From Aphelocoma coerulescens (lineage: Eukaryota > Chordata > Aves > Passeriformes > Corvidae): a stretch of DNA of 64,000 nt. The notes under the pieces are model-generated. The model ran no database searches. It had not been told where the DNA came from and saw nothing but the letters and a program-made list of their open reading frames with translations. The stretch lies in contig NW_027184061.1 of the NCBI RefSeq assembly GCF_041296385.1, forward strand, positions 1,579,501 to 1,643,500, read 5' to 3'. The translations under genes were made by a program, and so were the position numbers. Each line of letters opens with the position of its first letter. The first letter of the stretch is position 1. Positions 28,502 through 30,768 of the stretch are shown in pieces.

Positions 28502-28774
28502 TGTTGGGGTCTCCTCCCCCCGCCATGTAGCCCTGAGGGAGGCACGGGGTTTCCCTGCCCCTGGTCAGCCTCGTTCCCCATTGGTTGGTTTGTGTTCCCC
28601 TGCGCGGGCAAAGCAGCTCGGGTGCTGACTGCAGCAGTCTCTCGGCAGAGCCCGGCCATGCGGCTGGGGAAATAAACATCTCTGAAACATCTAGCAAGAA
28701 TCCGTCCGTATATATTTCTTTTCCACGGGACTCCTGGTTTGATATAGGCGTGTTGCAGTATCCCCACTGCAACA
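28502..28774 (+). mobile_element. 5' LTR of the young cold-shock provirus
   Basis: 273 bp, starting TGTTGGGGTC and ending CACTGCAACA. Contains an inverted CCAAT (CCATTGGTTGG) and an AATAAA about 110 bp before the end, so it is in plus orientation. Differs from the 3' LTR by one C in a C run. No standard primer-binding site is recognised immediately after it. Confidence 0.92.
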
Positions 28775-28895
28775 TAATGGTAGAGAATTGAGGCCAGAAC
28801 GATCCCCGATCCCTAAGCAACTGATTTATGTGAGTAAACCCTGGAAACTTTGGATTCCTCTTCTTGGTTTTGTTTCGCTATTCCATATCTGGACT

Positions 28896-30284
28896 ATGGA
28901 AGAATCGTGGGAAATGGGGCTCTCTGAGCCACAGAAAAAAATGTATCTAGAAGTAAAAGGAATCCTTGAACAACAAAACAGAAAAGTATTGGAACCGGGA
29001 GATCTTGAACATCTTTTTATCTGGCTTTTCAAAGGGTTCCCCTGTATTTCTCGAGACTTACTTTTTGATATCGGACCTCCTGGATATTATCAGGAGTGTT
29101 ACTGGAACGAGATCTGTGATAAGCTAAGGGATGGACGATCGATAGAAGCTGTCCGCGGATCCTATGTAATCAGTGACGCTCTTCAGGAGCATCTGTATGG
29201 TCCCATTACCCCTAAAGCAGAAGATCATACCTCTCCCGTGGCCGAGACCGCGTGGCAGCCATCCCGGGAGTGTATGACTGCAGCCATGCCAGCGGAGGTG
29301 CCTGTGCTGGATGTGCCCGGCCCCCTCGGGAGCGCGCGCCTTACCGCGGACCCCATCCCTGTCTCGGGGTCCCCGGCCACCCGACCGCGAGTGAGGGAGC
29401 GACGCCGCAGGCGCCACGGGTGCCGTGGGCCACGAGCAGCCAGGAACCGGAGGTCAGTGTGGAAGCCCGCTCTGAGCATACGGCTCGGAGAGCCCTGTGG
29501 AGGGAGAAGCGGTGGTTTCCACAGTGACACGAGAAGCCGCGCAGCGCAGCGCCGAGCCGAAACGAGGCCGCTCTCGAAGCAGCGTGGAGTTTGCGGAGCA
29601 GAGCCGCTCACGGGGTGTGGGGCCAGCGGCGATGGCAGCGCGGGGCCGCGCAGAGCCCAGACAGGCGCTGGAGCGGGGCCGCGCAGAGCCCAGACACGCA
29701 CCGGAGCAGCGTCGTGCAGAGAGCGCAGAGCGGCCGCGGCGCGGGGGCCTGACCGAGACGTCGGAGTCGGCGAGGCGGCGGCCACGCGGGACCGGCACCC
29801 ACGACAGACACGCAAGCACGTGATAGGAGACGTTCTAGCAACGAAAGTCACAGGAACTGTGAAATGGTACAATGTAAAAAACAACTATGGATTTATAACA
29901 CGAGATGATACAGGGGAAGATTTATTCATCCATAGAACTGCCATTAAAAGGAATAACCCTAAAAATTACCTGCAAAGTGTAGGAGATGGGGAAGTTGTTC
30001 AATTTTATATAGTTCAAGGAAAGAAGGGTTTACAAGCAGCGAATGTTACTGGGCCTGGAGGTATTCCCGTTAAAGGCAGCCGTTATGCACAAAATTATAA
30101 ACAATATCCATTCCAGCAATTTCCCTACCCACAGCCTAATTTCCCCTTTTACCCTATACCCAATATGAACCCTTTCCTAAGTTTACCCTATCCCCAGTTT
30201 ATTCCTAATCCGTTTTTCACTCCATGGCTTCCTTATACAGTTCCATTTCCCTACAATTCCTCTCCGATGCCGATGGGGGGATGA
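28896..30284 (+). CDS. Gag matrix-like / Y-box cold-shock domain fusion protein of a defective provirus
   Basis: 462 residues from the ATG at 28,896; the frame is open upstream to 28,788 without an earlier ATG. Residues about 1-100 look like a retroviral matrix domain (acidic/amphipathic start, then a Trp/Phe-Pro segment). Residues about 115-312 are a G+C-rich, Arg/Ala-rich linker with a short 33 bp repeat. Residues about 314-387 form a cold-shock domain like YBX1, with VKWYN, NNYGFIT (RNP1-like) and DLFIH (RNP2-like), then VGDGE and ANVTGPGG. The tail to 462 is rich in Pro, Phe, Tyr and Asn. Cold-shock domains bind single-stranded RNA/DNA. The domain part is much more A+T-rich than the linker. 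It lies between near-identical LTRs with no pol or env. Function as an RNA-binding fusion is inferred. Confidence 0.85.
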   Translation: MEESWEMGLSEPQKKMYLEVKGILEQQNRKVLEPGDLEHLFIWLFKGFPCISRDLLFDIGPPGYYQECYWNEICDKLRDGRSIEAVRGSYVISDALQEHLYGPITPKAEDHTSPVAETAWQPSRECMTAAMPAEVPVLDVPGPLGSARLTADPIPVSGSPATRPRVRERRRRRHGCRGPRAARNRRSVWKPALSIRLGEPCGGRSGGFHSDTRSRAAQRRAETRPLSKQRGVCGAEPLTGCGASGDGSAGPRRAQTGAGAGPRRAQTRTGAASCRERRAAAARGPDRDVGVGEAAATRDRHPRQTRKHVIGDVLATKVTGTVKWYNVKNNYGFITRDDTGEDLFIHRTAIKRNNPKNYLQSVGDGEVVQFYIVQGKKGLQAANVTGPGGIPVKGSRYAQNYKQYPFQQFPYPQPNFPFYPIPNMNPFLSLPYPQFIPNPFFTPWLPYTVPFPYNSSPMPMGG

Positions 30285-30496
30285 AAAGGGGGAGGGAAGA
30301 AACCCTCTCCTGCCTCAGTTTCCCCACAGGCATGTCCAGAGAGTTCTGTCTCCCTTCTGTCAGCCCTAAGATGTTCCACAGAATCTGTTTGGACATTTAA
30401 AGACTCAGGAGAGTGGCTTGTTTTGTTTTGAAACTGTTCTTGTTATGGTTATCCAGTTGTCTTCATTCTCCTTTTATTAAAATAAAACGGGTGAGA

Positions 30497-30768
30497 TGTT
30501 GGGGTCTCCTCCCCCGCCATGTAGCCCTGAGGGAGGCACGGGGTTTCCCTGCCCCTGGTCAGCCTCGTTCCCCATTGGTTGGTTTGTGTTCCCCTGCGCG
30601 GGCAAAGCAGCTCGGGTGCTGACTGCAGCAGTCTCTCGGCAGAGCCCGGCCATGCGGCTGGGGAAATAAACATCTCTGAAACATCTAGCAAGAATCCGTC
30701 CGTATATATTTCTTTTCCACGGGACTCCTGGTTTGATATAGGCGTGTTGCAGTATCCCCACTGCAACA
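30497..30768 (+). mobile_element. 3' LTR of the young cold-shock provirus
   Basis: 272 bp, identical to 28,502-28,774 except for one C. Preceded by a purine-rich stretch (about 30,478-30,496) that may be the polypurine tract, and followed by the CTTCCC target-site duplication at 30,769-30,774. Confidence 0.92.

Follow-up and report, generated by a model that had tools for sequence, protein, structure and literature searches.

A pol-less LTR element family of jays and crows encodes a predicted matrix-like domain fused to a Y-box cold-shock domain

We analyzed a 64,000-nt stretch of the genome of the jay Aphelocoma coerulescens (contig NW_027184061.1, positions 1,579,501 to 1,643,500; hereafter the window, to whose first letter positions refer) and focused on a plus-strand element at 28502-30768. 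The element is bounded by two long terminal repeats (LTRs), a 273-nt copy at 28502-28774 and a 272-nt copy at 30497-30768, both of the form TG...CA and differing solely by one 1-nt indel. A 6-bp target site duplication (TSD), CTTCCC, lies at both ends (28496-28501 and 30769-30774), and with the near-identical LTR pair it identifies an LTR retroelement. The 5′ LTR carries AATAAA at its position 170 and an inverted CCAAT (ATTGG) at position 79; the LTR promoter scan relied on bacterial motifs and carries no information. In the leader (28775-28895), a presumed primer binding site has TGG 3 nt past the LTR (28778); it reads TGGTGGAG in many copies and may resemble tRNA-Ala. A single unbroken frame follows at 28896-30284 (462 amino acids from ATG plus stop; 498 amino acids if read from a TTG at 28788), and then a 3′ untranslated region (UTR) at 30285-30496. 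Since this frame takes up the greater part of the 1,722 nt that separate the LTRs, there is no space for pol or env, and the capsid, protease, reverse transcriptase and integrase of an autonomous retrovirus are absent. A preliminary description of the locus, which had reported one long frame between two LTRs and neither pol nor env, was thus borne out at exact coordinates. No clear polypurine tract was scored in the element, and Rfam and tRNA scans of the whole window found nothing.

The encoded protein opens with a matrix-like domain (residues 1-115, 28896-29240), continues through an Arg/Ala-rich linker (residues 116-308, 29241-29819) into a Y-box cold-shock domain (CSD; residues ~309-394, 29820-30080) and closes with a Pro/Phe/Tyr-rich tail that is conserved across the family described below (30081-30281). 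This agrees with the order given in the preliminary description, the matrix-like part by predicted fold only. The linker is 73% GC, poorly conserved and contains a 33-nt direct repeat (29640-29705). The N-terminal domain was predicted to form five helices, and in fold comparison five retroviral matrix entries ranked first, those of Rous sarcoma virus (RSV) and mouse mammary tumor virus (MMTV) being nearest. The matrix-like assignment is a matter of predicted fold, not of sequence: the N-terminus had no matrix family match in Pfam and none in the PDB by sequence or profile, and the matrix piece had no relative in viral_contigs, whether searched singly or as an alignment. With a first N-terminal model, the best Foldseek E value was 4.6 against PDB entries and 1.3 against the viral library.

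The CSD was recognized by Pfam (E 6.8e-23), and its best PDB sequence matches were YBX2 and YBX1 (top E 2.8e-39). Both ribonucleoprotein (RNP) motifs are present, as are W65, F74, F85 and H87 (human YB-1 numbering), residues described as stacking on RNA bases (PMC7226217). These four residues were intact in 9/9 family proteins and in all 19 young jay copies; among 20 older copies, W65 was replaced by Ser in one and H87 by Leu in one. Compared with cellular YBX1, YBX2 and YBX3, the family shares a CSD with intact RNP motifs and up to 72% identity over the domain, but it differs in carrying Tyr/Cys66, Thr76 and Gln121 (9/9 family proteins versus 0/106 other Y-box proteins) and in having the aromatic tail in place of the usual charged C-terminal domain. 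Residue 99 was Tyr, the YBX1/3 type, in six of the nine family proteins and Cys in the other three. After the CSD, P0033 and P0086 fit YBX1 best (scores 66 and 45.5, versus at most 35.5 and 19 for YBX2/3), whereas for P0001 and P0004, both of subfamily I (see below), YBX2 gave the better fit (27.5 and 31.5, versus at most 18.5 for YBX1). P0033, a 344-amino-acid protein on a 1408-nt contig, has a CSD nearer to cellular YBX, close to that of YBX1, and its tail aligns with the window tail (score 121, versus 77 for the best of 1000 shuffles). By its sequence it may represent an early branch, possibly outside corvids; a search with its tail for more birds returned only P0033 itself among 13 candidates.

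Database relatives included one protein of A. coerulescens, P0001 (91% over the matrix piece), along with six of the New Caledonian crow that have related CSDs (P0002, P0004, P0006, P0007, P0008 and P0086). P0002 has lost the tail frame after the CSD, and the C-terminal part of P0086 matches the translated window LTR (31 amino acids, 58%, E 1.5e-4). The preliminary description had proposed searching genomes with the LTR and the CSD separately; in the jay genome (G000), both recovered the same gene between LTR pairs. We examined the best 150 of 7607 first-look candidates for the CSD plus tail (93-100% identical; stop inside 5/150), the best 150 of 1521 for the matrix (86-100% identical; stop in 3/150) and the best 40 of 2648 for the LTR. 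These lists hold the best matches by likeness, are hence biased toward intact copies and do not give total copy numbers. Two full LTRs were found at 27 of 30 CSD-chosen loci, 25 of these 27 with a 6-bp TSD. These loci are partly non-independent: one is the window copy (L010), another its duplicate (L009), and L015 and L016 look like a second such pair. L009 (G000 C641:1414962-1417228), 193 kb from the window copy, has the same TSD and flanks identical at 188/188 and 1012/1013 sites, and is a segmental duplication of the window insertion, not a new insertion. The LTR-chosen set is less biased toward the gene: the 40 LTR matches fell into 27 places, of which 20 were taken, three were already in other sets and four were not included. 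Two LTRs together with matrix, CSD and tail were present at 19 of these 20 loci, 17 of them with a 6-bp TSD, and L054 had none of these parts. We also inspected three short stretches adjoining other matrix matches; two reach the CSD, and the third, too short, extends to the linker.

A tree of Y-box domains, likewise proposed in the preliminary description, placed the nine family proteins on one side of a branch (34 rows; support 99/97; 98% of 200 bootstrap trees). Adding jay copies (35 rows) resolved two subfamilies, subfamily I with six jay and two crow rows (99/98) and subfamily II with 13 jay and four crow rows (100/99); branches within this tree were mostly weak. The grouping points to one capture of a Y-box domain followed by a division into two subfamilies. 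Because each subfamily contains both genera, the division most likely predates the jay-crow genus separation. Apart from these relationships, some copies are evenly spaced in G000, at C35:8432448, 8434382 and 8436316 (1934 nt apart) and at C645:1238965, 1256660 and 1274354 (~17.7 kb apart), probably through tandem amplification after insertion. In the best-150 lists, many copies have equal scores and open frames 463 or 467 amino acids long, which suggests very recent bursts.

We then compared the family with a published insertion in crows. Hooded crows carry an ERVK insertion of 2.25 kb (corCorLTRK1b), with LTRs of 296 bp, 20 kb upstream of NDP at position 112,179,329 of chromosome 1 in the hooded-crow reference; every hooded crow genotyped was homozygous for it, and it was associated with plumage and with the expression of NDP (PMC7341801). 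At the window leader, its genotyping primer P_R_F_1 has two mismatches (18/20 nt, 18 of them contiguous, at 28795-28812), against six at the second-best position in the window, and the longest runs in the window of the three flank primers and P_R_R_1 were at most 12. P_L_R_2 has no match in the window copy, which belongs to subfamily I; read in frame, it encodes the HPWFPS of subfamily II tails, a motif found in 3/120 proteins compared, all three of them crow family members. In the jay genome, P_L_R_2 had 931 sites at two mismatches or fewer, versus three for the reversed control. All of the first 20 of these sites lie in loci encoding matrix, CSD and tail, 19 of them with two LTRs; an exact 6-bp TSD was seen in 5/19 two-LTR copies under the edge rule used. 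A P_R_F_1 site within four mismatches was present at 18 of the 20 loci. Nucleotide comparison missed the CSD in two of the first ten loci, and protein comparison detected both. PMC7341801 assigns P_L_R_2 to the LTR region; by the comparison here it lies in the gene tail, ~550 nt from the LTR end, a position that fits the 659-bp amplicon. The positions at which the two element-side primers fit the family are the expected ones.

The primer-chosen loci also bear on a reading that the preliminary description had set against its own, namely that the frame is a processed YBX pseudogene lying between unrelated LTRs. The CSD in the window is intronless, as such a pseudogene would be, but the order LTR-matrix-CSD-tail-LTR recurs at 19/20 LTR-chosen and 19/20 primer-chosen loci, which refutes this explanation; we give it practically no weight.

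Judged from the primer matches, the gene-bearing loci found at them and the amplicon fit, the NDP insertion very probably belongs to subfamily II. Its 2.25 kb compares with 2.07-2.34 kb in the family and its 296-bp LTRs with 259-301 bp, and it shares the leader primer site and the HPWFPS-encoding primer. It differs in that the window copy belongs to subfamily I whereas the primer fits subfamily II, and in being presented in PMC7341801 as an LTR retrotransposon; the main text of that paper makes no mention of a Y-box, a cold-shock domain or gag. If the link holds, the plumage-associated insertion stems from a protein-coding family, not from a bare LTR, and the product and the silencing of this family become relevant to the hooded-crow system.

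At the substitution rate used in PMC7341801 (0.0158 per site and Myr), the single LTR difference dates the window copy to ~0.12 Myr. Median LTR divergence was 1.4% for the 19 LTR-chosen copies, 1.7% for the 27 CSD-chosen copies and 8.6% for the 19 primer-chosen copies. Slower bird rates would make the ages several times larger.

Mobile elements without pol are expected to lose their genes. We estimated the ratio of nonsynonymous to synonymous substitution (dN/dS) by the Nei-Gojobori method on codon pieces from subfamily I (n=5, including the window), young subfamily II (n=14) and the older primer-chosen copies (n=20), leaving out L060, which has only a 44-amino-acid CSD match, and L054, which has no gene. 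For the CSD, dN/dS was 0.18 within subfamily I, 0.20 in young II, 0.29 in the older set, 0.19 between young II and the older set and 0.25 between I and II. The corresponding values were 0.62, 0.21, 0.37, 0.24 and 0.37 for the matrix and 0.58, 0.38, 0.64, 0.46 and 0.29 for the tail. None of the 19 young rows had a stop in the matrix, CSD or tail pieces; in the older set, stops occurred in the CSD of 4/20 and in the matrix of 9/20. As controls, pN/pS was 0.68-1.52 for LTRs read as codons and 0.47-1.42 for the 3′ UTR, while the CSD gave 0.21 and 0.39 in frame and 0.43-5.62 out of frame. The CSD is separate from the LTR control; neither the tail nor the matrix of subfamily I stands out from it clearly. 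We conclude from these substitution patterns that the captured CSD is under purifying selection in a multicopy family of two corvid genera.

This bears on the reading that a nonautonomous element carries the fusion as inert cargo, which looks intact only because the copies are young. Many copies are indeed young, as the median LTR divergence of the LTR-chosen set indicates, and in subfamily I the ratios reach 0.62 for the matrix and 0.58 for the tail. However, the CSD ratio of 0.25 was obtained between subfamilies whose CSDs are ~66% identical, and the window protein and P0001 differ at 29/283 residues in matrix plus linker versus 2/154 in CSD plus tail (p 2.8e-4), so that a mere passenger appears improbable. 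Still less probable is that some copies were co-opted by the host and preserve the frame on its behalf. A precedent exists in chicken ERNI (ENS-1), described as the Gag of a young endogenous retrovirus (ERV) with a developmental role (PMC10996621), but the selection seen here acts across many dispersed copies rather than at a single syntenic locus, and no locus shared by jay and crow has been shown.

The element is one copy of an old, multicopy, pol-less corvid LTR family whose protein joins a matrix-like domain, a captured CSD and a conserved aromatic tail. Our preferred interpretation, to which we assign a probability of roughly 45%, is that this protein acts as a mini-Gag serving the RNA of the element itself. 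The CSD would bind the transcript that encodes it, a cis preference, and the matrix and tail would deliver the RNA-protein complex to a helper's particles; this helper, autonomous and retrovirus-like, would provide capsid, reverse transcriptase and integrase. We favor action in cis because it is the simplest reason for retaining a frame in an element mobilized by another's enzymes. No helper was found; the matrix search of the genome covered the best 150 matches, so a less similar matrix-bearing helper would not show. CAUC motifs were not enriched in the element RNA beyond shuffles. Because this pol-less family keeps a captured RNA-binding domain under selection, it allows a direct test of cis preference in a retroviral satellite.

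The protein might instead act selfishly in trans, altering translation of host messenger ribonucleoproteins, stress granules or germ-cell silencing and so raising expression of the whole family. The CSD retains its RNA-contact residues, and Y-box proteins are described as abundant in germ cells, where they inhibit translation (PMC7226217). If the benefit arose purely in trans, however, selection on individual copies would be weak, which fits poorly with CSD ratios of 0.18-0.29, and we consider this explanation unlikely, though a serious competitor. A slim chance is left for transcriptional feedback, in which the Y-box protein would drive its own LTR by way of the ATTGG motif. YB-1 has been reported to bind retroviral promoters, that of RSV among them, with overexpression raising transcription (PMC6040738), but a 5-mer within 273 nt is weak evidence, and a membrane-type matrix domain hints at no nuclear role.

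Extending the mini-Gag interpretation, we tentatively envisage a satellite that kept the matrix-like part of Gag, in which the Y-box took the place of capsid and nucleocapsid, which carries its RNA in cis to a helper, which predates the jay-crow split, and one insertion of which alters a crow color gene involved in incipient speciation. We regard this fuller scenario as possible but rather doubtful as a whole.

Around the element, a minus-strand gag p24 piece of an older ERV lies at 27080-27520 (E 1.6e-18), within an ERV remnant spanning 27080-28501; the Y-box element, in opposite orientation, sits beside and apparently inside it. Kinship of the matrix-like N-terminus with this minus-strand piece was considered and rejected (profile comparison probability 0.5%). 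A second minus-strand ERV remnant, at 52257-55997, contains an integrase core (E 3.2e-10), a reverse transcriptase (E 4.8e-22) and a weak protease match. The window also holds a near-tandem duplication, ~97-98% identical (1-10357 with 40146-50497, and 15498-18839 with 60659-64000), with the Y-box element between the copies, and a minisatellite of 51-nt period at 26262-26649.

Listings from literature searches of open-licence PMC papers showed no LTR element with a Y-box or a captured host gene, and the element is best placed among nonautonomous ERVs bearing a gag/host fusion. Acutely transforming retroviruses join a 5′ gag part to captured host coding sequence. The preliminary description had drawn this parallel, and the fusion itself stands; the likeness to a virus that picked up a gene once does not, as the cargo here is an RNA-binding domain under purifying selection in an old, vertically spread family of hundreds of copies in jay and crow. 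ENS-1/ERNI of chicken is likewise an avian ERV, young and present in many copies, that carries a Gag-derived gene and serves as the nonautonomous partner of ENS-3/Soprano, but it is described as related to ERV-L and as having a coiled coil and a capsid fold, with no cold-shock domain described in the source (PMC10996621). The betaretroviral Gag of MMTV, working with host YB-1, shares the matrix-like fold and a Y-box protein serving retroviral RNA (PMC4486188, PMC6040738), whereas in the jay element the Y-box domain is part of the element's own protein, and capsid, nucleocapsid and pol are absent. The fusion would thus represent a covalent, natural version of the MMTV Gag/YB-1 partnership.
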